This document shows, piece after piece, positions 4,846 through 35,383 of a stretch of 35,806 nucleotides of DNA. The DNA comes from Desulfovibrionaceae bacterium. GTDB lineage: Bacteria; Desulfobacterota; Desulfovibrionia; Desulfovibrionales; Desulfovibrionaceae. Positions within the stretch are counted from its first letter, which is position 1. Each line of letters opens with the position of its first letter. The translations under genes were made by a program, and so were the position numbers. Location of the stretch: positions 1-35,806 of the forward strand of contig JAVHLG010000039.1 in assembly GCA_031082225.1 (NCBI GenBank), read 5' to 3'. The notes beneath the pieces were generated by a model. It ran no database searches. It had not been told where the DNA came from and saw only the letters and a program-made list of their open reading frames with translations.

Positions 4846-6408
4846 TCAGCCTCCGCTGGAAAGACTGTGCAACATCCCGAGTAACAGGAACAGATACAGG
4901 GACCACTTGATGAGCACCACGGCCAGGGCCTGAGAATAGGCTGCACCGTGGACCTTTTTCAGGCCGATGGCCTGCAGCGTCATATACCAGATAAGGATCA
5001 CCGGCGAGAGCAACTGTCCGGCCACGGGCACGGCCGAAAGCACCGTGGGCGCGGCGCTGTAGCACATGACCCGGAAGGTCTCCTCGAATTTCTTGCTGTT
5101 CCCGCGCAGGAGCATGAGCAGAAGATGCGTCAGCCCTGCGTCCAGGAAGATGCCTGCGGCCATAAAGACCGGCACCATGACCAGAAGGATCAAAAACCCG
5201 ATGCCCGGCACCCCGGCCATGGCGGCCAGGGCGTCGGTCTGGCCCGTGTCCGCGAGTTTGGCCCGGACGCCCAGGATGGCCCAGAGAAAATCCACCAGGA
5301 GCAAAAATTCGCTCAGAAGCAGGTTGAAGACCATGGCCTTGCCCTTGCCCCGGCCAGGGGGCATGGACTCGAAAAATTCCACGGGCTGGAAAAGAATGCT
5401 TTTAAGCGTCAGCACCAGTCCCGGAAAAAATCCATAGACGTCGGGACGTTCCCAGGGCACCTCGCCTTGTGCGGCCTCGTCCGGCCGCCTCGGCGCAAAT
5501 CCCCCGGACGCTCCCGGCCAGTCCCCATCCGGTTCTCCGACTCCGGGCCCGGCGTCCGGCCCGGCGTCCCTTTCGGCAGACTGGTCATGATCCGCCCGGA
5601 TGGAGGGCCTGGCGGCGGCCGTGTCGCCGGGGGCCGGGGCCCCGGACGGGGCGTCCCCGGCGGAACCGTCCGATTCCTGTCCGGCGTCGCGCCCGGAGGT
5701 TTCCTGGACCAATGGATCCGCGGCGTTGCGGGGAGGGTTCGCCGCAGGGGGCGGGCCGGATCTGCCGGGCGGCATGGGACGCGGCGCGTCCTCATCGTCC
5801 ATGGCCTGGAGCCTGGCCCAGATGTCGCGCACGCCGTTTGACGCCTGCCCGGGGTCCGGGCGCGGCTCCGGCCGCGTCGGCGCAACGGCGGCCACATCCA
5901 CGCGCAGGCGTTCGTCCTCGTGCTCCGGCCGGGCCGGGGCGTCCTGGACCGCCGGATGCGACGCCCTTTGGGAAGGCGGGAGGGGCTCGGACGCAGGGGG
6001 GACGTCCTCGGCCGGGGCCGACGGCTCCCAGTGGGCCGACGGCGGCGGAAACACGCGACCGCGTTCCCGGGGAGACTCGGCCTCGGGACGGCTGCCCGTG
6101 GCCACGTTTTGGCGTCCATCGTAGCGCGCCGCGCCGCCGGGTTCAGAAAAACGGCGCTCCTGCCCCGGAAAACGCGGCATATCGTCGAGACCGACGCGCG
6201 CCCGATGTCCGCCCCCCGCCTCACCGGCAAAACCGGTATCGGATGCGGGCGGATCATGGGCGACGGCGGAAGGGTCGAAACCGTCGTCGAAATGGCGGAA
6301 ACGGAAGCGATGCCTGCACTTGGGACAGGTGGCCACGGCGGTCGAGGCGGGCACCTTCTCGTCAGGCACGTCCCGGCTGAAGCCGCATTCTGGACAGGTG
6401 ATGCGCAT
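4846..6408 (-). CDS. zinc-ribbon, disordered linker, Yip1-like membrane protein
   Basis: A 520-aa protein in three parts. Residues 1-35 form an MJ0042-type zinc ribbon with CPEC and CPKC knuckles (C5, C8, C28, C31). Residues about 40-325 are low-complexity, rich in Pro, Ala, Asp, Glu and Arg and almost certainly disordered. Residues about 330-515 are hydrophobic with about five membrane helices and resemble the bacterial Yip1/DUF1282-like domain: a soluble lead-in (VYGFFPGLVLTLKSILFQP), then helices around LLLSEFLLLVDFLWAIL, FLILLVMVPVFMAAGIFL, and a terminal helix VVLIKWSLYLFLLLGML. The zinc ribbon would face the cytoplasm. The start at 6408 is preceded by AGGGAG. It is the first gene of a three-gene set with short gaps (19 and 34 bases). 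Such zinc-ribbon/Yip1 fusions are known in deltaproteobacteria but have no defined role. The long linker is unusual. Confidence 0.8.
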   Translation of the reverse strand: MRITCPECGFSRDVPDEKVPASTAVATCPKCRHRFRFRHFDDGFDPSAVAHDPPASDTGFAGEAGGGHRARVGLDDMPRFPGQERRFSEPGGAARYDGRQNVATGSRPEAESPRERGRVFPPPSAHWEPSAPAEDVPPASEPLPPSQRASHPAVQDAPARPEHEDERLRVDVAAVAPTRPEPRPDPGQASNGVRDIWARLQAMDDEDAPRPMPPGRSGPPPAANPPRNAADPLVQETSGRDAGQESDGSAGDAPSGAPAPGDTAAARPSIRADHDQSAERDAGPDAGPGVGEPDGDWPGASGGFAPRRPDEAAQGEVPWERPDVYGFFPGLVLTLKSILFQPVEFFESMPPGRGKGKAMVFNLLLSEFLLLVDFLWAILGVRAKLADTGQTDALAAMAGVPGIGFLILLVMVPVFMAAGIFLDAGLTHLLLMLLRGNSKKFEETFRVMCYSAAPTVLSAVPVAGQLLSPVILIWYMTLQAIGLKKVHGAAYSQALAVVLIKWSLYLFLLLGMLHSLSSGG

Positions 6409-13663: not shown

Positions 13664-15289
13664 TCAGCCTTGGTTGTCCTCCCCGGAGGGAGATGGTTTG
13701 CCTTCGGATATGGCCGACCCGGGACCGCCGGGCGCAGCACCGCCGGGACCGGCCGTCTGGGACCTGGCCGCGCGCCGGGGGGCCACCCCGAACCGGGCCA
13801 GGATCTCGGCCACACGCTGGGCCGGATTGCCGGTCACCTTGGCCACGGCCTCCAGGTTGACCGCCACCAAAAATTCCACCTTGAAGGGCGCCGTCTCAAA
13901 GAGTCCGGCGATGCGGGCGGCCACGGTCTCGTCGAGCTGCAGCATGGCGCACAGCCCGGTCATTTCCTCGGCGGTCCGGGGTTTCCACACCAGCATGTCC
14001 GGCCTGTCCGGGTCGGCCTCGAACAGCCGCCGCCGCCCGATGCGGGTCAGATCCCCCTCCTCGCTCCCGACCAGGGAGGCCACCTCGGCCTCCACGGCCC
14101 GCCGCGTGCGCAGGGTGCGGACCACCGCCTTGCCGCCCTCGTCCCGGCATTTCTCCCGTAAAAAGGCCAGATAGGAGAATTCCAGGAGCAGGGGAATGAC
14201 CCGCTCCAGGCGCACCCGCTCAAAATTGCCCGCCAGGGAGGCGATGATCCGCCGCTGTGCGGCGTCGAACTCGCGGATGGCCCGTTCGAAATCCTCCCCG
14301 GCCACGGCCAGGACCAGCGCCGCCCCCAGGCAGCATCCCACGACCTGCCGGGCCAAAAACTCCTGCCGGGCCACGGCCTCTTCGGTGTCCGGCCTCCCGG
14401 CCGCCGCATATTCGCGGCCGACAGCATCCATGGCCGCCACCCGGGCCAGGTGCCGCATGACGGAAACCGGGGTTCCGGCCTCGCTCAGGGGATGGCCCCC
14501 GGCGTTCAGAAAGGCGGTCAGGGAGGCCACCAGGCGCTGGTTCTCCGGCCCGTCCTCCAGATCGTCGAAGGCGCTTTGCACCCGGGTCTTCTGGATGGTC
14601 TTGGTCGTGCCCCGCAGGGTGGCCAGCACCTCGTCGAAGGGCAGGCGCACCCCGGCGAAACCGCCCTCCCGGAAGACGGCGTATTTTTCGTCGGCCACGA
14701 TCCCGGCGTGGGCCGCCGCGATGCGCCTGAACACGAAGCTGTCCAGGTGGGCCCTCCACCAGGACTCGTCGAACTCGCAGCGCTCGGTGATGGCCTCGAT
14801 CTCGCCCAGGGCCGACTCCCCGAAGTGCAGGATGACGGCGTCGCTGAAATTGTCCTTGATCAGCGAGCAGGCGTACACCGCCCCCTGGACGCATTTGACC
14901 AGCAGGGCCTCGACCCCGGCCAACTCCGGTAAAAGCCCCTGGGCCTCGGCCTCGGCCCCCACGGCCCGGGCCTTGCCGTACTTGTTGAGGATCGCCAGGA
15001 ATTCGGCCGTGAGCCCCTTGAGGTGCTGGTGGGCCGGGTGCTCGGCGCCGCGACGCACAAGGATGTCGGTGAGGCTTTTCTGCTCGATCTCAAGCAGGGG
15101 AAATTCGTTGATACGCTCCCTGTTGACCCGGATGAATTCCAGGAAAACGCGCTCCTCCACCACCTCGCGCCGGGCCTTGGCCCGTTTGAGCTCCTCCAGG
15201 CGCTCCAGACAGGCGGCCACCCGGTCCGCGTCCGAAAATGCGCCGCCCTCCCGGGCGGTCGCGGTCCCAGCAGGCTCATCAACTTGCAT
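13664..15289 (-). CDS. unknown 541-aa protein in the cdsA-dxr operon
   Basis: I do not recognise this protein. It is 541 aa, mainly helical by composition, rich in Glu, Arg, Ala and Leu, with no signal peptide and no clear membrane segment except a moderately hydrophobic VVGCCLGAALVLAVAG near residue 320. Notable segments are KRAKARREVVEERVFLEFIR near 35-55, KCVQGAVYACSLIKDNFSDA near 135, FDESWWRAHLDSFVFRRIAA near 175, and a Gly/Pro-rich disordered tail after about 505. No catalytic motif is obvious. The start at 15289 has AGAGGA upstream. It lies 51 bases after cdsA and 8 bases before dxr, so it is clearly co-transcribed with envelope/isoprenoid genes. A cytoplasmic scaffold or regulatory role can be imagined but there is no direct evidence. 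Confidence 0.75.
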   Translation of the reverse strand: MQVDEPAGTATAREGGAFSDADRVAACLERLEELKRAKARREVVEERVFLEFIRVNRERINEFPLLEIEQKSLTDILVRRGAEHPAHQHLKGLTAEFLAILNKYGKARAVGAEAEAQGLLPELAGVEALLVKCVQGAVYACSLIKDNFSDAVILHFGESALGEIEAITERCEFDESWWRAHLDSFVFRRIAAAHAGIVADEKYAVFREGGFAGVRLPFDEVLATLRGTTKTIQKTRVQSAFDDLEDGPENQRLVASLTAFLNAGGHPLSEAGTPVSVMRHLARVAAMDAVGREYAAAGRPDTEEAVARQEFLARQVVGCCLGAALVLAVAGEDFERAIREFDAAQRRIIASLAGNFERVRLERVIPLLLEFSYLAFLREKCRDEGGKAVVRTLRTRRAVEAEVASLVGSEEGDLTRIGRRRLFEADPDRPDMLVWKPRTAEEMTGLCAMLQLDETVAARIAGLFETAPFKVEFLVAVNLEAVAKVTGNPAQRVAEILARFGVAPRRAARSQTAGPGGAAPGGPGSAISEGKPSPSGEDNQG

Positions 15290-18676: not shown

Positions 18677-21154
18677 ATGCCCCCCAGACTGCGCCACACC
18701 GCCAAGGACTCCTCGGAAAAGGCCCTCAAGGGCTCCATCCTCGACCATCTGGCCCATTCCCTGGGCAAGACCTACGAGGAGCGCACCCCGCGCAGCCTGG
18801 CCAGCTCCCTGGCCCTCTCCCTGCGTGACCGCCTGGTGGACCGCATGCTGGAGACCCGGGGCCGCTTCCGGGCCGCCGGGGCCAAGCGCATGTATTACCT
18901 GTCCATCGAATACCTGCTGGGCCGGTGCATCGGCAACAACGTCTGCAACATGCTCCTGGACGAGCCGGTGGACAAGATCCTGCACGATCTTGGCGAAAGT
19001 ATTGATGACATGCGCGAACTGGAACGCGACCCGGCCCTGGGCAACGGCGGCCTGGGCCGTCTGGCCGCCTGCTTCCTGGACTCCCTGGCCACCATGCACC
19101 TGCCCGGCTACGGCTACGGCATCCACTATGAATACGGTCTGTTCAAGCAGGCCATCGAGAAGGGACGGCAGGTGGAAAAGCCCGACTACTGGATGGCCGA
19201 CGGCATGCCCCTGCAACTGGAGCGCCGGGACCAGGCCGTGCTGGTGCCCATGTACGGCCGGGTGGAGGACCACTATTTCCCCGACGGCTCCTTCATGCCC
19301 ACCTGGGTGGACTGGGAGGATCTCGTGGGCGTGCCCTACGACATCCCCATCGTGGGATTCGGGGGCAAGACCGTGGTCCTTTTGCGGCTTTTTGCTGCCA
19401 AGGCCTCGGAGAGCTTCGACATGCAGATCTTCGACCAGGGCGACTACATCAAGTCCATCCATCAGAAGGTCTATTCCGAGCTGGTCTCCAAGATCCTCTA
19501 TCCCAGCGAGTCCATCTCCTTCGGGCGCGAACTGCGCCTGGTCCAGGAATACTTCCTGGTGTTCTGCTCCATCCGCGACATCACCCGGCGCTTTCTCAAG
19601 CAGAACAAAAACATCGACGAATTTCCCAACTACGTGGCCATCCAGCTCAACGACACCCACCCGGCCCTGTCCGTGGCCGAACTCATGCGGGTGTTCGTGG
19701 ACGAACGCCGCCTGCCCTGGGAGCGGGCCTGGGAGCTGACCAACCGGACCCTGGCCTTCACCAACCACACGCTTATGCCCGAGGCCCTGGAGATGTGGCC
19801 CGTGGATCTCATGGAAAAGGTGCTGCCCCGCCATCTCCAGATCATCTACGAGATCAACCGGCGCTTTCTGCAGCAGGTGGAGCTCTCCTTTCCCGGCGAC
19901 ATGGACCGCCTGCGGCGCATGTCGGTCATTGAGGAGACGCCGGTGAAGCAGGTGCGCATGGCCAACTTGGCCGTGGTGGGCGCCCATTCGGTCAACGGGG
20001 TGTCGGCCCTGCACTCGGAGCTGGTCAAGACCCGCCTTTTCCCCGACTACCACGCCCTGTGGCCGGGAAAATTCAACAACAAGACCAACGGGATCACCCC
20101 CAGGCGCTGGCTGTACAAGGCCAACCCCTCCCTGGCCACCCTGATCTCCGACGCCCTGGGCGATGCCTGGGTCACCGATCTTGAACAGTTGCGCGGCCTT
20201 GAGCCCCTGGCCCGCGACGCGGCCTTTGCCGACGCCGTGGCCAAGGTCAAACGCGGCAACAAGGCGCTTCTGGCCCAATACATCGTCTCCACCACCGGCA
20301 TCACCGTGTCCCCCGACGCCGTCTTCGACATCCAGGCCAAGCGCATCCACGAATACAAACGCCAGCTTTTGAACCTCATGGGCATCATCCTGCAATACTT
20401 ACGCATCGTGGAGGACGGGATCGTTCCCCCGGCCCCGGCGGTCTACGTGTTCGCCGGAAAGGCCGCGCCGGGCTATTTCGAGGCCAAGGAGATCATCCGG
20501 CTGATTCTGGCCGTGGGCCAGACCATCAACCGCGACAAGCGGGCGGCGGACCTCCTCAAGGTGGTCTTTGCCGCCGACTACCGGGTGTCCGTGGCCGAAA
20601 AGCTGGTGCCCGCCGCCGACATCAGCGAACAGATCTCCACGGCCGGGACCGAGGCCTCGGGTACCGGAAACATGAAGTTCTCCCTAAACGGGGCACTGAC
20701 CGTGGGCACCCTCGACGGGGCCAACATCGAGATACGCCAGGCCGTGGGGCCGGAAAACTTCTACCTCTTCGGCCTGACCACCCCCGAGGTGGAGGACATG
20801 CTGTCGCGGGGGGCCTACAACCCCTGGGACTATCACGCCGCGCACCCCGAGATTCGCCGGGTGCTCGACACCCTGTCCGCCGGACGCTTCACCCCTGGCG
20901 ACCCCGGGGCGTTCCACTGGCTGCACGACAAGCTTTTATCCCCCAACGAACGCTACCTGCATCTGGCGGATTTCATGGCCTACGTGGGGGCCAAGGACGA
21001 CATGCTGCGGGACTACGCCGACCGGCGGGCCTGGACCGCCATGTCCATCTTAAACACCGCCCGCATGGGGGTCTTCTCCAGCGACCGGACCATCGCGCAG
21101 TACGCCCGGGAAATCTGGAACATCCACCCCGTGCCGCCCGAAGACGCCTCCTGA
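18677..21154 (+). CDS. glgP: glycogen/starch/maltodextrin phosphorylase
   Basis: A cytoplasmic PLP enzyme that releases glucose-1-phosphate from alpha-1,4-glucans. The 825-aa length is normal for family GT35. Motifs include YYLSIEYLLGRCIGNN near 75, ALGNGGLGRLAACFLDSLAT near 120, QLNDTHPALSVAELMR near 330, NGITPRRWL near 468, and the PLP site EASGTGNMKFSLNGALTVGT with the Schiff-base Lys at 667. The start ATG at 18677 follows GGAGG. It is transcribed divergently from the 66-aa motility gene and no other glycogen gene (glgA, glgB, glgC) is in the window. A hairpin follows at 21197-21220. It would support use of stored glycogen. Confidence 0.97.
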   Translation: MPPRLRHTAKDSSEKALKGSILDHLAHSLGKTYEERTPRSLASSLALSLRDRLVDRMLETRGRFRAAGAKRMYYLSIEYLLGRCIGNNVCNMLLDEPVDKILHDLGESIDDMRELERDPALGNGGLGRLAACFLDSLATMHLPGYGYGIHYEYGLFKQAIEKGRQVEKPDYWMADGMPLQLERRDQAVLVPMYGRVEDHYFPDGSFMPTWVDWEDLVGVPYDIPIVGFGGKTVVLLRLFAAKASESFDMQIFDQGDYIKSIHQKVYSELVSKILYPSESISFGRELRLVQEYFLVFCSIRDITRRFLKQNKNIDEFPNYVAIQLNDTHPALSVAELMRVFVDERRLPWERAWELTNRTLAFTNHTLMPEALEMWPVDLMEKVLPRHLQIIYEINRRFLQQVELSFPGDMDRLRRMSVIEETPVKQVRMANLAVVGAHSVNGVSALHSELVKTRLFPDYHALWPGKFNNKTNGITPRRWLYKANPSLATLISDALGDAWVTDLEQLRGLEPLARDAAFADAVAKVKRGNKALLAQYIVSTTGITVSPDAVFDIQAKRIHEYKRQLLNLMGIILQYLRIVEDGIVPPAPAVYVFAGKAAPGYFEAKEIIRLILAVGQTINRDKRAADLLKVVFAADYRVSVAEKLVPAADISEQISTAGTEASGTGNMKFSLNGALTVGTLDGANIEIRQAVGPENFYLFGLTTPEVEDMLSRGAYNPWDYHAAHPEIRRVLDTLSAGRFTPGDPGAFHWLHDKLLSPNERYLHLADFMAYVGAKDDMLRDYADRRAWTAMSILNTARMGVFSSDRTIAQYAREIWNIHPVPPEDAS

Positions 21155-21196
21155 CGCCAAGACGGCGGCCCAGGAAAAACCCCGCAGGCATGCACA

Positions 21197-21220
21197 GGCC
21201 CCGCCTCAGGCGGCGGGGCC
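21197..21220 (+). terminator. hairpin after glgP
   Basis: GGCCCCGCC and GGCGGGGCC pair perfectly across a 6-base loop, 42 bases after the glgP stop. There is no T-tract after it. A smaller stem CAGGGC/GCCCTG follows at 21256-21272. Transcription probably ends in this area, but this is not a classic terminator. Confidence 0.4.
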
Positions 21221-21649
21221 TCGGCTTGAGGACAAAACCCCTGTTGCGCCAAAACCAGGGCTTTGCGCCCTGTGGATGGTCCCTGCCCCCTGCCGGTCCT
21301 TTTCACCCGCAAAGGGACATCATCAAAATTGACGCCCTATCCGTGGACGCTGACGGTTTACCTTCCGGCGTAAGTGGGTTAGCATTGTACGGTTTGTTGC
21401 TTGCAACTCCGTGGGCAAGGACTCCCGTCGCGGCAGCCATTCCAGGCACAAGACCCATGCCACGTCGCGCGGGTGAAGAAACACTGTTCCCGGTTTTCGC
21501 AAGGCGACCTGCCTTGCGAGCCGCGCAACTTGTGCGCATAGTCTGTGTATGGCTTACTATTCGGAAAGATTCAGCCAGTTGGACGGATTTTCATGACAAA
21601 CACGGACTTTTGAAGACGCGTCGACGTACAGGAGACGAAGCCGGGAATT
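21221..21649. other. lower-GC spacer before the hydrolase operon
   Basis: About 430 bases without a supportable gene. Base composition is visibly less GC-rich than both neighbours. It holds a small stem CAGGGC/GCCCTG (21256-21272) and a perfect 8-bp stem CGCAAGGC-GACCT-GCCTTGCG (21498-21518). A TTGTGC and TACTAT pair (around 21530-21562) could be promoter elements, but spacing is poor. The regulatory region of the next operon is presumably here. Confidence 0.5.
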
Positions 21650-23602
21650 ATGAAGAATCTATCATTTTTCGCCACTGCCTGGATGTATATCAAAACACAT
21701 CTCCTGTTCCGTCATGGTGGCGTCCTTCTGGCCATCGGGCTTGTCGCCGTCGTGGCCTCCGGCTGCGCAGGCATCACGGTCAAGCGGGTGGATCCAGGCA
21801 AAAGGGTGGAGTCCTTTGACCGAAGCGCGCTTCATTCCAACCGGCCGAGCGAACGTACCCTCGCCTTCCTCAAACAGCGGGATCTGGAGGCGTTTTGGAA
21901 GAGCGATCCTCTGGGGCTCATTATCATGCTCGACGCGCAGTACCGTGACGACCCCTATGGGGACACGCTGTTTGCGCTCATGGAGATCTGCCATCTGGAG
22001 GCCGAACGGAGCAAGACCCTCCCGGAAGACGCCGCCGTCAGGCATCTTTCCTGCGCCCTCTATGCCTACCTGTACCTCATAAACCTCAAAGACAACCCCC
22101 AAGGCAACCTGTACCACCCGTATTCGCGCCTGGCCGCGCAATTCTACAACACCTCCCTGGCGAGATACCTGCTGTACGCCAGGGAAAGCGGCCTGCGGTA
22201 CGAGCACGGCCGCAAGCTCAGACTTGTCGTCGGGGAGATCGAACTCGACCGGCGACTTTCCGAGTTATCCTGGAATCCCGAGGAGTTCGCCGGGTTCAAG
22301 CTGGCCTACGAATACGAGGTGGGGGGGCTTGAGACATACAATGTGAATCCGGGACTCGGGGTTCCCGTGGCCCTTATCCGGAAGCAGCAGGAACGGGACA
22401 CGGCGCGTCCCGAGGACAGATTTCTTCCGACCATCGAGCAGACGTACGCGGCCACCGCGTTTTTGCGCATCAAGCCGGAACCGGAGGGCGGCCACACCTT
22501 CACGGCCGATTTCGAGCTCTACGACCCCATGAAAACCGACGCCATCCGGTTGGGCGACGTCTCCGTGCCCCTGGAGATCGACCTCACCACGCCCCTGGCC
22601 TACATGATCGCCAACGCCCCCTCGCCGCAGGGAATCACCGGCCTCATGGACCCCGAGGCCACGGCCCCGCAGCAAGGCCTGTACATGTTGCAGCCCTACC
22701 AGCCGGACAAGATCCCGGTGATCTTCGTGCACGGCCTCATGTCCTCTCCCCGTACCTGGCTGCAGATGCTCAACGGGCTCATGGGCGATCCGGTCCTGCG
22801 CCGCCGCTACCAGTTCTGGTTTTTCAAGTATCCGACGGGCAATCCCGTGTTGTATTCGGCCGCGACCCTGCGCGATTCCCTCACCCAGGCGCGGATGACC
22901 TTCGACCCCGAGGGCAGGGACGCGCAGTTCAACAAGATGGTCATCGTGTCGCACAGCATGGGGGGGCTGTTGACGAAGACCATGGTGCAGTCCAGCGGCG
23001 ACCACCTGTGGGACATGCTCTTCGACGTCGACATCAAGGACATGGACATCACGCCGGACGAGAGGGCGTTTTTGTCCAGGATGCTCTTTTTCGAGCCGCA
23101 GCCTGCCGTATCGCGGGTGGTGTTCATCGCCACGCCGCACCGTGGGGCCGGGATGGCCATGGGCACCATCGGCCGCATCGGCCGGGCATTGGTGACCCTG
23201 CCCGCCACCCTCGTCAAATCGACGGCAGGCGTGTTCGGCCAACTGGCGAAAAAACGCTCGCCCCATGCCTCGCAGGCCCTGCACCGCCTGGATTCCCTGC
23301 CCACGGGGATCGATTCCCTGTCGCCAAGCAACCCTGTTCTCAAGTACTTGGTGGAGGCCGAAATCCAGGTTCCCTACCACTCCATCATCGGCAACGAACG
23401 CGAGGCCAAGCCCGGCGGCACGGACGGCGTCGTGCCCTATACGAGTTCCCACCTGGACGGCGCGGATTCGGAACTCGTCGTGCATTCCGGCCACAACGCC
23501 CAGGAGCACCCCCTGGCCATCCGCGAGGTGCGGCGCATCCTGTTGGAGCATCTCGGGGAGGCCTCCGGCAGCGGCGGGAAGGCCGGGATGGGAAACCCGT
23601 GA
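21650..23602 (+). CDS. lipoprotein alpha/beta hydrolase (lipase/esterase-like)
   Basis: A 650-aa predicted lipoprotein with a hydrophobic segment ending VVASGC (Cys39). The N-terminal half (about 45-320) is an unassigned mixed domain with many aromatic residues (LYHPYSRLAAQFYNTSLARY). The C-terminal half (about 345-640) is an alpha/beta hydrolase: oxyanion-side motif PVIFVHGLMSSPRTW, nucleophile elbow VSHSMGG with Ser436, a likely acid Asp592 in GTDGVV, and His near 612-620 (SGHNAQEHP). A TPHRGAG motif also fits lipase-like members. The substrate is unknown. The ATG at 21650 has a weak GGGA site; a start at 21683 would give a shorter signal sequence. Its stop overlaps the GTG of the next gene by four bases (GTGA), so translation is likely coupled. 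The protein is probably on the periplasmic face of the inner or outer membrane. Confidence 0.85.
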   Translation: MKNLSFFATAWMYIKTHLLFRHGGVLLAIGLVAVVASGCAGITVKRVDPGKRVESFDRSALHSNRPSERTLAFLKQRDLEAFWKSDPLGLIIMLDAQYRDDPYGDTLFALMEICHLEAERSKTLPEDAAVRHLSCALYAYLYLINLKDNPQGNLYHPYSRLAAQFYNTSLARYLLYARESGLRYEHGRKLRLVVGEIELDRRLSELSWNPEEFAGFKLAYEYEVGGLETYNVNPGLGVPVALIRKQQERDTARPEDRFLPTIEQTYAATAFLRIKPEPEGGHTFTADFELYDPMKTDAIRLGDVSVPLEIDLTTPLAYMIANAPSPQGITGLMDPEATAPQQGLYMLQPYQPDKIPVIFVHGLMSSPRTWLQMLNGLMGDPVLRRRYQFWFFKYPTGNPVLYSAATLRDSLTQARMTFDPEGRDAQFNKMVIVSHSMGGLLTKTMVQSSGDHLWDMLFDVDIKDMDITPDERAFLSRMLFFEPQPAVSRVVFIATPHRGAGMAMGTIGRIGRALVTLPATLVKSTAGVFGQLAKKRSPHASQALHRLDSLPTGIDSLSPSNPVLKYLVEAEIQVPYHSIIGNEREAKPGGTDGVVPYTSSHLDGADSELVVHSGHNAQEHPLAIREVRRILLEHLGEASGSGGKAGMGNP

Positions 23603-24627
23603 GGTGGTTGCGGGCGCTTTCACGGATCGCGGCCGCCGCCGGGGCGACCCTGGCGACCGTCTGGGCCAGCCTGGCCGCCTACTGGTCGGATATCCCCGGC
23701 CAGACCGGGAAAACGGCCCTGGCGGCGGGCATTGTCCTGGCGGCGATCCTGATTTTTGCGGGCATCCGGCGGCGGGCCGTGGCGTATGGCGTCTTTGCGG
23801 CCGCGCTGGCGGGCTTTGTGTTGTGGTGGGCCGCCATCCCCGCCTCCGGCGTCCGCGACTGGCAGCGCGACGTGGCCGTGCTTCCCTTCGCCCAGATGCA
23901 CGGCGACATGGTCACGGTGCACAACATCCGCAATTTCGCCTACACGACCGAGACCGACTACACACCGGGCTACTACGACAAGACGTTCGACATGAAGACG
24001 CTTGATTCCGTGGACCTGATCGCGGTCTACTGGATGGGCGACGCCATTGCCCACGTCATGGTGAGCTTCGGCTTCGGGGGCAGGGACTATCTGTGCCTGT
24101 CCATTGAAACGCGCAAGGAGGTTGGCGAGGACTATTCCTCGATCAAGGGCTTTTTCAAGCAGTACGAGCTGACCTATGTGGCGGCCGACGAACGGGATCT
24201 GATCCGCCTGCGCACCAGCTACCGCACCCCTGCGGAAGACGTGTACATCTACAGGACGCGCATGACGCCGGAAAACGCCCGCCTGCTTTTTATGGAATAT
24301 ATGCAGGAAATTAACAGGCTGCACAAAACGCCCGCGTTCTACAACACGCTGACGACAAACTGCACCACCAACGTGGTGCGGCACCTGCGGGCCTTTGGCG
24401 GCAAGGCCCGGTACAACTGGAAGATCCTGCTTTCAGGCTATGCCCCACTGTATGCCTACGAACAGGGCGGGCTTGACGACACCCTGCCCTTTGAAACGCT
24501 TCGGGCCGCAAGCCATGTGAATGGAAAGGCCGCCTTGGCCGGTGATGGTGACGATTTTTCGGCCCGGATCCGGGAAGGCCTGCCGGGCGTGCCGCCTCGC
24601 GCCACCCGGGCGGCCGTCGGCCAGTGA
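23599..24627 (+). CDS. DUF4105 / Lnb_N-type membrane protein
   Basis: A 342-aa protein with three N-terminal membrane helices (about 8-28, 38-56, 61-81) and a periplasmic domain that matches the DUF4105 family (Pfam PF13387, recently named Lnb_N after a lipoprotein N-acyltransferase). Supporting segments are DMVTVHNIRNFAYTTETDYT, TLDSVDLIAVYWMGDAIAHV, and TTNCTTNVVRHL, in which Cys255 is the conserved thiol. Family members are thought to be cysteine acyltransferases or related thiol enzymes; a role here is inferred. The GTG at 23599 overlaps the stop of the hydrolase gene, and the frame upstream of it is a shadow. Partnering with a lipoprotein hydrolase suggests joint lipid or lipoprotein handling. 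It is followed by 112 bases without a clear terminator, then the convergent permease gene. Confidence 0.8.
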   Translation: MRWLRALSRIAAAAGATLATVWASLAAYWSDIPGQTGKTALAAGIVLAAILIFAGIRRRAVAYGVFAAALAGFVLWWAAIPASGVRDWQRDVAVLPFAQMHGDMVTVHNIRNFAYTTETDYTPGYYDKTFDMKTLDSVDLIAVYWMGDAIAHVMVSFGFGGRDYLCLSIETRKEVGEDYSSIKGFFKQYELTYVAADERDLIRLRTSYRTPAEDVYIYRTRMTPENARLLFMEYMQEINRLHKTPAFYNTLTTNCTTNVVRHLRAFGGKARYNWKILLSGYAPLYAYEQGGLDDTLPFETLRAASHVNGKAALAGDGDDFSARIREGLPGVPPRATRAAVGQ

Positions 24628-24739
24628 GGGGCGGTGGGGGTACGCCCGGGAGTTGTGGACCGCGCCGCAGACGACAGACGGCCCGTTGGTCCGGCCCCCC
24701 GATCCCAGCCCGGGACCAGGCGTAACGGCCGCCCGTGTC

Positions 24740-26054
24740 TCAGCCGATCTTCGTCAGCGCCCAGACATAGACAGCCGCCACCGTCAACTGGCACAGGGTG
24801 ACCGGCACGCCGTAGCGCAAAAAAGTGCCGAAGCGCACCGGACGGCCATGGGCGGCGCAGACCCCCACGGCAACGAGGTTGGACGAGGCCCCGATAAGCG
24901 TGGCGTTGCCGCCCAGAGTGCCGCCGAACATCATGGCCACGAAGACCGGGAAGGCCGCCTGGGGCCAGTCGGTGAATCCCGAGCTGGAGCAGCACCAGAT
25001 AGCCCTTGACCATCAGGATCGAGGCCGCAACCACCGGGATGTTGGCCAGATAGCCCGACACCAGCCCCACCGCGCCAAGCAGGGCAAAGGCGGCCAGGAG
25101 GATGTCGTCCCCGATTCCGGCGTGCAGGGCCCGGGACAGCCCGCTCATGAGCCCGGTCTTGGTGAATATCTCCACATAGCACATCATGCAGAAGATAAAG
25201 AGCAGGGTCTTCCAGTCGATGTCCCGCAGGACCGCCTCCACCGGTTCGACTTTGAGGGTATGCACGGCCAGAAGGGCCAAGCTGGCCCCGATGATGGCCG
25301 CCGAGGGCGGCATGATGGGGTTGGGCATGGCCTCTCCCACCAGGAACAGGCCCACCATTATCAAAAGGGCCGCCAGGGAAAAGACGCAGAAGGTCTTGCG
25401 CTCGATGCGCCGGGGAACCAGGTTCGCAGGCAGGATGCGCCTGCTTTTCCAGACCGTGGGGAAAAGAAGCGGCATGAGTGGGATGAGCACCACAATGGCC
25501 AGCACGCCCCCCAGGCTGACCATGCGCAGATAGTCCATGAAGCTAAGGCCCATGGCCTGGCCCACCAAAAACGTGGCCGGATCGCCCACCAGGGTCAAAA
25601 GCCCGGCGGCGTTGCTGAGCATGGCCGTCAGGATCATGGGGCCCACGAAATCCACGTCGAGTTCCGCGCACACCCGGATGATGATGGGCGCCAGGAGGAC
25701 CACCGCTGTGGCGTTGGGCAGGATGGCGCAGACCACGGACACGAGCACCGTCAAAAGCAGCAGGAATCGCTTGCCGCTGCCCCCGGTCAGGATCAGGAAA
25801 CGCATGCCCACATGCTCGAAGATCCCGGTGGGGGCCAGAACCCGGGCCACCACCATGCCGCCGAAGAGCAGGGACAGGGCGCCCTCCGAGGCCAGGACGG
25901 CGTTTAACACGTCGGCGTTGGTGATGGCCCCGGCCAGGGTCAGAAGACACAGCCCGATGAGCGCGGCCAGGGCCAGGTCCATGAGGTTTGCGGCGATGCA
26001 GGCGATGACCGCCGCAAACACCATGCAGATGGCGTAGATGTGGTAGTCCGGCAT
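24740..26054 (-). pseudogene. ion-transporter superfamily permease (ArsB/NhaD/SLC13-like), frameshifted
   Basis: A transporter with about ten membrane helices, broken by a one-base shift. The first frame, from the ATG at 26054 (AAGGGA upstream), runs MPDYHIYAICMVFAAVIACI to about 24980. Motifs PNATAVVLLAPIIIRV and LVGDPATFLVG fit the ArsB/NhaD/SLC13 superfamily. After VKGYLVLLQL the frame changes; the -1/+2 frame continues GFTDWPQAAFPVFVAMMFGG, then TLGGNATLIGASSNLVAVG, the second superfamily repeat motif, and stops at 24740. Removing one C from the CCC at 24978-24980 joins both parts into a normal 437-aa protein. This may be a true recent mutation or a sequencing error in a homopolymer. The substrate (dicarboxylate, Na/H or an oxyanion) cannot be told. 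It is 40 bases after the binding-protein gene, so likely co-transcribed. Confidence 0.8.
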
Positions 26055-33025: not shown

Positions 33026-35383
33026 ATGAAACGAACGCTTGCGGCCGTCCTTGCGGTATGCGCCGTCGCCTTCTCCCTGGGCTGGGACCAGACGGCCTTC
33101 GGGGCCTCGATCCCCGGCTTTGCGGCCAAGGCGTCCAAAAAAGACGGCGCGGCCGCAGTCGCGCCCCGGGAGGACGCCCCCCCCGAGGCCCGGCTGGCGG
33201 CTATGACCGACGCCCAGGCCCGGACGCTACTCCTGGAAAAGCTGACTGCCGAGGCCGCCGCCGCGCGGGCCGTACAGGCCCCCCACGATCAGGAGCCGGT
33301 GGTCCTTTTTACCCTGTTTTTTGGCCTCGAAACCGGGATACGGGGGTTCATCGCCCGGGCGGCGGGGCTTGTGGAGGCGGCCCGGGGGGAGCTGTCGGAT
33401 ACCGGGGGCATCGTAAGCCGCCTCACGCAGGGCCGGGGGGCCGGGCATCTGGCCCGGTTTGCGGCCACGCTTTGCCTGGTGCTGGCCGCCTGCCTGTGGG
33501 CCGCCCGCCTGTCGCAGCGACTGGTCGGGCCGCTGCTGCGCGACCGCAGGGAAGGCGACCCGGGCCGACTCTGGCGGCTTGTGACCTTCCTCCTGCAGGC
33601 CTGCCTGCGCGCCCTGGCCCCGGCGGTGTTTTACCTCTTCGGCTTCATTCTGGTCCTGGCCGTCTTTCCTGCCCACGGCCCGGAACACGGCATGGCCGTC
33701 ATCGTGGTCGTGGCCGTGACCTATTTTCTTCTCATCCGGGTGCTGGCCCTGTGCCTCCTCTCCCCGGACAGCGTGTCCCGGCGTCCGGCGCCCATGGCCG
33801 ACGCCCATGCCCGGACCCTGTACCGCTGGCTCATGGCCATCGCCTACGGCGGCCTGGTCTGCGCCGTGGGGAGCGCCATCCTGGAGCAGGAAGCCCTGGC
33901 CCCGGCCCTGGCCCGCGTGGTCCATGCCTGCGCCGGGGTGCTCACGGGAGGGCTGCTGGCGGCCATGATCCTGTGCAACCGGCGGCGCGTGGCCCAGGCC
34001 ATCATCGATTCCGGCCCGTCCGGCGGCGAGGCGACCCTGCGCCTGTCCATGGCCCGCTCCTGGCACATCCCGGCCCTGGCCTACGCCCTGTTCGTGGGTC
34101 TGTACTGGACCGCCCAGGACCTGGTGTCCGAGATTCCCATTTTGCGCCTGATCTTAAGCCTGTTCCTCATCCCGGCCTGTATCGGCATCGACCTCTGGGT
34201 CCGCCGCATCCTGGCCATGGCGGCGGGTGAGGACCAACAGATCATCCCCATCTCGTCCGGGAACGCCTCGGCCGCCATCCCGCCTGACGGCCCGGCCGAG
34301 GCGTCCGAAGCGCCGGACAAAAAGACCCTGAGCCAGTACATCCCCCTGATCAAAAAGATCGTGCGCGCGGCGTTGATCGTGTTTCCGGCCTTTGTCATGC
34401 TCCGGCTGTGGGGCGTGGAGATTCCCCTGGGCTGGCTGTTCGCCAGAAACGTGGTCAGCATCCTGCTGGTGGTCGTGGCCGGGCTGGTCATGTGGGAGAT
34501 CATCCGCATCCGCATCGACCGCAAACTGAAGGAGGAGATGTCGCTAAGCGGCGACGAAATGGAGGAAGGCGGCGGCGCGGGCGGCTCACGCAGCGCCACG
34601 TTGCTCATGCTCCTGCGCAAGTTCCTCCTGTGCGTCATCGTGGTCATGGGGGCCCTGGTGGTCCTGTCGTCGCTTGGGGTGGACATTGCGCCGCTCATCG
34701 CCGGGGCCGGGGTGGTCGGCCTGGCCATCGGGTTCGGGGCCCAGACCCTGGTCAAGGACATCATCTCCGGCGTCTTTTTCCTGATCGACGACGCCTTCCG
34801 GGTGGGGGACTATGTGGAGGCCGGCACGGCCAAGGGCACGGTGGAGCAGATATCCCTGCGGTCCATGAAGCTGCGCCATCCGCGCGGCATGGTGTTCACG
34901 ATTCCCTACGGGGGGCTCAAAATCATCCAGAACTTCAGCCGCGACTACATCGTGTCCAAGCTGGATTTCCGGGTCAAATACGACGCCGACATCGACAAGA
35001 TCCGAAAGATCATCAAGCGCATCAACAAGGAGATCATGGGCAACGAGGAGCTACGGCCCGGGATGTTGAGCGACATCAAGTCCATGGGCGTGCGCAAGAT
35101 GGAGGACTCGGCCATGATCCTGCGCATCAAGTTCCGAACCATCCCCGGACATCAATTTCTGGTGCAGAAGGAATTGTACCGTCGGGTGCAGGAGGCCTTT
35201 CGGGAGAACAACATCGACTTCGCCCACCGCAACGTGACGGTGTATTTCCCGCCCGAGATGCAGGCCATGGTGGGCGGCGCAGCCACGTCCGAGGCCGCTC
35301 GGGCGGCCGTCGCCGGGGCCGCGGCCGGGGCCATGGCCATGGAGCAGGAACTGGCCGCCAAGGAGAAATCGTCCGGGGAGTGA
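33026..35383 (+). CDS. large MscS-family mechanosensitive channel
   Basis: A channel that opens under membrane tension and releases solutes on osmotic downshock. The 785-aa product has a signal peptide (MKRTLAAVLAVCAVAFSLGW), an Ala-rich periplasmic lead, and a long region with about nine to ten membrane helices, as in the YbiO/MscM-type large members. The conserved MscS core is at about 548-740: pore helix APLIAGAGVVGLAIGFGAQT, then LVKDIISGVFFLIDDAFRVG and DYVEAGTAKGTVEQISLRSM, then the beta domain (FTIPYGGLKIIQNFSRD) and the cage domain (HRNVTVYFPP). The tail after 745 is Ala-rich. The ribosome site is weak (CCGGATG). It shares an operon with the lipoprotein gene and ends at a strong hairpin (35413-35459). 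Confidence 0.94.
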   Translation: MKRTLAAVLAVCAVAFSLGWDQTAFGASIPGFAAKASKKDGAAAVAPREDAPPEARLAAMTDAQARTLLLEKLTAEAAAARAVQAPHDQEPVVLFTLFFGLETGIRGFIARAAGLVEAARGELSDTGGIVSRLTQGRGAGHLARFAATLCLVLAACLWAARLSQRLVGPLLRDRREGDPGRLWRLVTFLLQACLRALAPAVFYLFGFILVLAVFPAHGPEHGMAVIVVVAVTYFLLIRVLALCLLSPDSVSRRPAPMADAHARTLYRWLMAIAYGGLVCAVGSAILEQEALAPALARVVHACAGVLTGGLLAAMILCNRRRVAQAIIDSGPSGGEATLRLSMARSWHIPALAYALFVGLYWTAQDLVSEIPILRLILSLFLIPACIGIDLWVRRILAMAAGEDQQIIPISSGNASAAIPPDGPAEASEAPDKKTLSQYIPLIKKIVRAALIVFPAFVMLRLWGVEIPLGWLFARNVVSILLVVVAGLVMWEIIRIRIDRKLKEEMSLSGDEMEEGGGAGGSRSATLLMLLRKFLLCVIVVMGALVVLSSLGVDIAPLIAGAGVVGLAIGFGAQTLVKDIISGVFFLIDDAFRVGDYVEAGTAKGTVEQISLRSMKLRHPRGMVFTIPYGGLKIIQNFSRDYIVSKLDFRVKYDADIDKIRKIIKRINKEIMGNEELRPGMLSDIKSMGVRKMEDSAMILRIKFRTIPGHQFLVQKELYRRVQEAFRENNIDFAHRNVTVYFPPEMQAMVGGAATSEAARAAVAGAAAGAMAMEQELAAKEKSSGE

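Follow-up and report, generated by a model that had tools for sequence, protein, structure and literature searches.

What is encoded by two genes that overlap by four bases, one specifying a putative lipase-type lipoprotein and the other a membrane protein of the DUF4105 family, and is their association peculiar to one genome? The pair lies at positions 21650-24627 of a 35,806-nucleotide (nt) stretch of DNA from a Desulfovibrionaceae bacterium (assembly GCA_031082225.1, contig JAVHLG010000039.1, positions 1 to 35,806 of the forward strand), and this whole stretch is referred to below as the window. The hydrolase open reading frame (ORF; 21650-23602, plus strand, 650 amino acids (aa)) and the DUF4105 ORF (23599-24627, plus strand, 342 aa, GTG start) share the sequence GTGA at 23599-23602, which holds the start of the latter and the stop of the former, exactly as described in an earlier note on this DNA that had proposed a pair handling the acyl chains of lipids or lipoproteins. 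We favor, at roughly even odds (about 0.5), the possibility that the pair is a periplasmic module for phospholipid deacylation and acyl transfer that is separate from lipoprotein maturation. A coupled lipid-acyl function at the periplasmic face, the broader part of the earlier proposal, gained from the predicted folds, from the catalytic residues and from the types of hydrolase that occur as partners, while its lipoprotein part lost ground.

Assignment of the second protein to DUF4105/Lnb_N is firm by profile search, as PF13387 (Lnb_N) matches it at E 3.5e-41 with 141 bits (cut-off, 22.2 bits). An alignment (A1) was made of 49 of 57 sequences including that of the window, with L008, L010, L028, L032, L036, L038, L052 and L054 excluded as broken, shortened or over-long calls (L numbers designate loci), and His151, Ser167, Glu169, Tyr233, Tyr247, Asn253 and Cys254 are invariant in all 49. 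Residues are numbered here for a 341-aa protein starting at 23602, so that Cys254 (codon 24361-24363) is the Cys255 that the earlier note had picked out in the 342-aa product. In the AlphaFold2 model (mean predicted local distance difference test score (pLDDT) 92.5), His151 (codon 24052-24054) stands at the start of strand 150-158 and, about 100 residues on, Cys254 opens helix 254-263, as assigned by DSSP; histidine followed by cysteine is the order seen in permuted NlpC/P60 enzymes (PMC3142127). Tyr247 sits seven residues ahead of Cys254, a spacing identical to that of Tyr154 and Cys161 of LRAT, which are named in a reference title within the same paper, and by analogy with its account the catalytic polar or tyrosine residue would be one of Tyr247, Tyr233, Glu169 and Ser167. 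Ahead of the permuted NlpC/P60-like domain, three transmembrane helices are predicted (2-27, 34-54 and 58-77); three hydrophobic segments occupy this region in 43 of the 49 aligned proteins and two in the other six.

By its predicted fold, DUF4105 belongs with the permuted NlpC/P60 enzymes of the LRAT and Tox-Act1 kind. With VIA-align run over the Foldseek candidates for the model, TseH came first (Z 9.8, root-mean-square deviation (rmsd) 3.8, 154 aligned), and the Bacillus cereus permuted enzyme 3kw0 (Z 7.4, rmsd 3.7, 136 aligned) and CLN5 (Z 6.1, rmsd 4.2, 157 aligned) were also found, although a fold match at Z below 8, taken by itself, is counted as weak. Rows under CLN5 (Z no higher than 5.1) are mostly alignments of membrane helices, and the few covering the catalytic domain fall below Z 4. 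A search by sequence for relatives of solved structure returned only chains of mediator and RPB9 (E 0.0098 at best), none of them credible, and these were set aside. Fatty acid binding or action on lipids is described for permuted members of the superfamily (PMC3142127); LRAT/HRASLS enzymes, Tox-Act1 and CLN5 are described as acting on phospholipids (PMC3142127, PMC7387801, PMC13015511, PMC12994826), and in the case of CLN5 bis(monoacylglycero)phosphate is made via deacylation and transacylation (PMC13015511).

On its structure model (mean pLDDT 81.4), the first protein is a lipase-type alpha/beta hydrolase lipoprotein with a predicted Ser-Asp-His triad, in line with the lipid-anchored serine hydrolase that had been suggested. 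Its N-terminus carries the lipobox ...VVASGC39-AG (Cys39 codon, 21764-21766). The strict lipobox pattern is present in 20 of 28 hydrolases, where position +2 holds Ala in 15, Gln in two, Ser in two, Gly in one and Asp in none (0/20), and the alignment column of the lipobox cysteine is at least 90% Cys. Ser436 (22955-22957), Asp592 (23423-23425) and His615 (23492-23494) are S, D and H in all 28 sequences (27 homologues and the window protein); the window hydrolase reads S-H-S-M-G around the serine, and position 434 is Gly in at least 90% of the alignment. The closest folds to the C-terminal domain are lipases such as BlEst2 (Foldseek E 7.1e-7; Z 20.7 over 214 residues), and a bacterial phospholipase aligned at Z 19.5. 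Sequence searches gave weak lipase matches among solved structures (best E 0.00016) and matches to Abhydrolase_6 (E 6.5e-5) and PGAP1 (E 7.8e-4) that lie below the curated cut-offs. The N-terminal part is predicted to be mostly helical at 43-180 and then beta-rich at 190-310; these first 250 or so residues were barely probed by the fold searches and are given no fold here.

The two genes recur together well outside the Desulfovibrionaceae. Six peptide patterns taken from the window DUF4105 protein, used in one genome scan, yielded 56 DUF4105 loci with 42-69% identity in the best segment, a set that misses distant DUF4105 proteins because the patterns derive from the window; at least three genomes contribute two loci each (L005/L038, L032/L037 and L026/L044). 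By titles as deposited, the loci come from deltaproteobacteria, beta- and gammaproteobacteria, Nitrospirota, Planctomycetota, Elusimicrobiota and Verrucomicrobia. A hydrolase homologue lies near DUF4105 in 27 of the 56, upstream in 15 and downstream in 12, on the same strand in every case (27/27), and 23 of these pairs overlap or sit within 280 nt; the 4-nt overlap is itself found in L003 and L006 and, with reversed gene order, in L049. For nine loci (L002, L009, L011, L012, L022, L035, L042, L044 and L045, of which L044 shares its genome with L026) a full-length hydrolase is encoded elsewhere in the genome (E < 1e-200), and L002 also has weak hydrolase scraps beside DUF4105 (E 0.04 and 1). 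Two other kinds of acyl hydrolase gene occur 3' of DUF4105, one for a patatin-Omp85 protein in six betaproteobacterial loci (L018, L024, L033, L036, L052 and L056, with one intervening gene in L056) and one, in L031 and L053, for a DUF900 alpha/beta hydrolase. Across 23 of the 28 pairs, pairwise distances of the two proteins correlate (r 0.62, a value reached in 0 of 9999 permutations). Judged from these comparisons, the pairing of hydrolase and DUF4105 is not due to chance. The earlier note had made its proposal stand or fall with recurrence of the pair and conservation of the cysteine, and both were found.

Counts over whole genomes gave a further measure of the association. A sample of 296 genomes from the phylum has this type of DUF4105 in seven, each from a different family, and the hydrolase clearly in nine, namely these seven plus G174 and G263 (G numbers designate genomes); the resulting table (both genes 7, hydrolase only 2, DUF4105 only 0) gives a Fisher p of about 1e-12, with the caveat that genomes are not independent. 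The genes are adjacent in six of the seven. One of these, G252, is counted on a 98-bit hydrolase fragment at a contig end, and leaving it out changes the table to 6/2/1/287 and p to 2e-10; in G221 the hydrolase is in pieces on two contigs, the tail piece adjoining DUF4105. A further 18 genomes with weaker hydrolase matches only, mostly to the generic hydrolase core, were left uncounted. Among 199 genomes of the window's own family, DUF4105 is found in eight and a full hydrolase (E < 1e-100) in 25 (p 2e-8), and all eight DUF4105 genomes have the hydrolase, adjacent in six. PF13387 had no match in the hydrolase-only genomes G174 and G263 or in same-genus G224, which has neither gene. The surveys are not mutually independent, since the samples overlap the loci (G425 and the genome of L002, for example, share a hydrolase position) and the profiles A1 and A2 were built from the loci. 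We also observed a second PF13387 architecture, DUF7843-Lnb_N-DUF7840, in proteins of about 650 aa (L090:495-2438 and L091:1110-3068, minus strand); G221 and G252 hold both this and the three-helix type.

A plausible scenario is that the hydrolase, tethered to the membrane as a lipoprotein, would use its Ser-Asp-His triad to break acyl ester bonds in glycerolipids of the envelope, phospholipids being the most likely. The DUF4105 protein would be anchored in the inner membrane by its three N-terminal helices with the permuted NlpC/P60 domain facing the periplasm, where Cys254 and His151 could form an acyl-thioester and hand the chain on, either to a lipid acceptor or to water. Acting together, the two enzymes would deacylate and re-acylate, or trim, phospholipids; topology and substrates are predictions, and joint action, perhaps as physical partners, and the direction of acyl flow are presumptions of this model. 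The phospholipid reading is supported by the occurrence of three serine acyl-hydrolase types (window type, patatin-Omp85 and DUF900) in the partner position. PlpD, the Pseudomonas aeruginosa prototype of the patatin-Omp85 proteins, is described as having a periplasmic patatin domain, and plpD deletion as raising membrane lipids (PMC11116518). More generally, the presence of paired lipase and thiol acyltransferase-like genes in distant bacteria suggests an unstudied two-step editing of envelope lipids. One detailed form of this, which we offer as speculation and doubt will hold in full, is a Lands-type remodelling of periplasmic phospholipids that needs neither coenzyme A nor ATP, in which, in bacteria that possess the lipoprotein N-acyltransferase Lnt, the hydrolase would make lysophospholipids and the DUF4105 transacylase would re-acylate them or build acyl-lipids from a phospholipid donor; in other lineages the lysophospholipid-making role would fall to the patatin-Omp85 or DUF900 hydrolase.

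Several observations weigh against the proposed phospholipid module. Foldseek alone gave no match in the PDB for the DUF4105 model at E <= 0.001, and TseH, its best structural relative, is reported in PMC12994826 to have yielded no detectable lysophospholipid from phosphatidylglycerol (PG) or phosphatidylethanolamine (PE) in a mass spectrometry assay. All 1000 chains aligned to the hydrolase model score Z 8 or higher, the top 50 including esterases and haloperoxidases, and a fold this common does not prove a lipid substrate. At twelve of the 56 loci no member of the three hydrolase clusters lies in the neighborhood and the genome lacks a full-length window-type hydrolase, a count to be read with the facts that several of these contigs end near DUF4105 and that only part of the neighbours was family-scanned. 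Among the twelve, L020 comes from a genome with a 47-bit hydrolase fragment, and L014 has a 30-residue hydrolase tail directly before DUF4105 (70% identical, E 1.3e-6) preceded by an MlaA lipoprotein gene (5107-5880, E 2.9e-65) in the usual place of the hydrolase. In the window's own family, 17 of the 25 full-hydrolase genomes lack DUF4105, and dependence of the hydrolase on DUF4105 was rejected for this reason; taken with the eight of eight DUF4105 genomes that have the hydrolase, this indicates that DUF4105 leans on the hydrolase and not the reverse. The trees also conflict, with the window hydrolase grouping with those of Planctomycetota and the window DUF4105 with deltaproteobacterial ones. 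Strict co-inheritance of the pair was rejected because this conflict lies at depth, and together with the patatin and DUF900 partners it reads as though DUF4105 keeps an adjoining acyl hydrolase while the hydrolase itself gets exchanged. The tree, used for branching only, labels L024 'none' although its patatin-Omp85 neighbor was later recognised, so that its three patatin rows are an undercount. Finally, a guess from genome context published elsewhere has DUF4105 supporting resistance transporters or translocation (PMC10318531).

The lipoprotein version of the idea, in which DUF4105 would supplement Lnt as a second N-acyltransferase while chains would be removed by the hydrolase, draws on the membership of the protein in the Pfam family of Lnb, on the report that DUF4105 genes have repeatedly been displaced by Lnt in three genomic contexts (PMC12994826), and on Staphylococcus aureus LnsA, a permuted NlpC/P60 enzyme that N-acylates lipoproteins with a second protein (PMC7387801). 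We nevertheless consider it quite improbable. All 10 genomes tested carry an Lnt above the curated cut-off, among them the seven DUF4105-positive genomes of the phylum sample, one of which is the window's own (TIGR00546, 316 bits). In Lnb, a 5TMH_Lnb domain comes after Lnb_N; PF25221 (5TMH_Lnb) had no match in the window's own genome, with Bacteroides ihuae positive as a control, and Lnb_N is the only Pfam family listed for the DUF4105 protein at E <= 1. Lipases and patatins are found among the neighbors scanned, which are a selection, whereas Lgt, Lsp and Lnt are not. Because the host has Lnt and the Lnb architecture is absent, the lipoprotein N-acylation half of the earlier idea appears weakened and the module is placed apart from lipoprotein maturation; these two points, together with neighbors that are often phospholipid-directed, are our reason for favoring a phospholipid module. 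It also follows that PF13387 hits outside Bacteroidota, for all the name Lnb_N, do not warrant a default annotation as lipoprotein N-acyltransferase. As a separate observation, G082, which has the pair, encodes four Lnt homologues above the curated cut-off.

If phospholipids are the substrate, transfer need not be involved: the lipase could make a lysophospholipid from which the DUF4105 enzyme strips the remaining chain, or the reverse, so that the two would serve as serial hydrolases clearing mislocalised phospholipid. Tox-Act1, the sister clade of DUF4105, is described as a phospholipase that hydrolyses PG and PE (PMC12994826), the alternative partners are of phospholipase type, and lipid-transport neighbors found at single loci (MlaA in L014, a TamB-like protein in L043 and a TamA-like protein in L035) fit phospholipid handling. 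Against this, Lnb, the nearest named family member of known function, is a transferase (PMC12994826), and hydrolysis and transfer are inseparable by sequence alone; we regard serial hydrolysis as the main rival, a minority possibility to be taken seriously. Far less probable, in our view, is a role of the protein as a cysteine peptidase or amidase, with peptidoglycan or lipid-amide bonds as its target, or as an accessory to a transporter, linked to the lipase only via a shared envelope-stress response. The NlpC/P60 superfamily does include peptidoglycan hydrolases, lipid-amino-acid amidases have been proposed for two permuted members (PMC3142127), the link of DUF4105 to transporters or translocation suggested in PMC10318531 would fit, and genes for MscS channels, glycine-zipper-like proteins and MacB/FtsX-type permeases are repeatedly found nearby; the His-before-Cys order, however, is that of the lipid-active permuted group, and pairing with three different serine acyl-hydrolase types would be hard to square with such a role.

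With regard to how the pair came to its present position, the intergenic spacer that separates it from the glycogen phosphorylase gene glgP (18677-21154, PF00343) spans 21155-21649 and has a GC content of 0.588 compared to 0.655 for the window. The earlier note had taken this as a hint of transfer; composition was rejected as a sign because it is ordinary (79 of 1413 sliding windows are lower), whereas patchy occurrence of the genes and a synteny breakpoint give mobility or rearrangement partial support. In same-genus G388, DNA homology on the glgP side stops at window position 21221 and resumes on the hydrolase side at 21705, a point 55 nt into the hydrolase ORF, with the two blocks about 535 kb apart. 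The breakpoint is therefore in the spacer or in the opening 55 nt of that ORF (21221-21705), and it may reflect acquisition or rearrangement. G388 keeps the block from the hydrolase to an AcrB-type gene, the hydrolase and DUF4105 proteins being 90% identical and the glgP product 95%. Just upstream of the hydrolase in that genome, genes for a Cache/PAS hybrid sensor kinase, a receiver-like protein (recognised by eye only) and a substrate-binding protein replace glgP (L115:10675-15776).

Downstream of the pair in the window lies a CitMHS-type transporter gene on the opposite strand. Neither protein of the pair matched PADLOC anti-phage defence profiles at E <= 0.1, the window has no Rfam match above the gathering score, and NCBIfam gave matches far below cut-off only. 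Two promoter-like sites (0.7 in shuffles), both on the minus strand, and six terminator-like sites (2.6 in shuffles) were found in 21100-24900, and nothing is drawn from them. ARAGORN calls a 92-nt tRNA-Ala at 13718-13809 on the minus strand, which lies inside a 541-aa open frame and is probably spurious.

Other envelope genes recur near DUF4105, and we consider them less telling on function. MscS-type mechanosensitive channel genes (cluster c12) occur in five of the 56 loci, two of them family-scanned, and also in L087; coordinates are 33026-35383 in the window (8 kb from the pair), L037:8951-10588, L087:2584-4287 and L026:4311-5012. MacB/FtsX-type permease genes are present in three loci (L011:3282-5148, L030:3678-5658 and L019:899-2128), with an accompanying ATP-binding cassette ATPase gene confirmed by testing in L011 and L030. 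Small envelope proteins (clusters c6, c7, c8 and c13) comprise a DUF3313 type in eight loci (three tested), a Ysc84 type in five (three tested), a glycine-zipper-like type, below cut-off, in eight (two tested) and, in seven (two tested), a protein of 160-190 aa that matches no family over cut-off. In the elusimicrobial loci L050 and L055, DUF4105 follows BtpA, PfkB and IndA-like genes, which we take to represent pseudouridine-type catabolism, and no lipase cluster adjoins (L055 was family-scanned and L050 has the same clusters).

PldA, PagP and the Mla system edit phospholipids in the periplasm and outer membrane and, to our knowledge, little is known of such editing beyond them. A conserved module of a lipase and a thiol acyltransferase-like protein, with the lipase apparently exchanged between lineages, would offer a defined gene pair for testing periplasmic re-acylation. 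Lipases, permuted NlpC/P60 enzymes and PF13387 are each familiar; what is new is a three-helix DUF4105 subfamily that coexists with Lnt and has a conserved, exchangeable acyl-hydrolase partner, and the passages on DUF4105 in PMC12994826 and PMC10318531 make no mention of lipase pairing. Lnb, the Bacteroides lipoprotein N-acyltransferase (PMC12994826, PMC12345273, PMC13103446), combines PF13387 with PF25221 and has in common with the window protein the PF13387 catalytic domain with its conserved His and Cys, but the latter has three N-terminal helices instead of 5TMH_Lnb, Lnt in its host and lipase partners. The permuted NlpC/P60 enzymes LRAT, HRASLS, YiiX, TseH and Tox-Act1 share His before Cys and conserved Tyr and polar residues with DUF4105 (CLN5 is likened to it by fold match only), and differ in that DUF4105 has a predicted inner-membrane anchor and a lipoprotein-lipase operon partner; no secretion or toxin-immunity genes were seen among the selection of DUF4105 neighbors scanned. 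LnsAB of S. aureus is likewise an acyl system of two genes, one of them for a permuted NlpC/P60 protein, although these genes are noncontiguous and LnsB is a CPBP-family membrane protein, whereas the partner in the window is a serine hydrolase encoded by an overlapping gene. PlpD-type patatin-Omp85 phospholipases, which are absent from the window and have an unrelated hydrolase fold and an outer-membrane barrel, resemble the window hydrolase as periplasm-facing acyl hydrolases and, in the six betaproteobacterial loci, are the neighbors of DUF4105.

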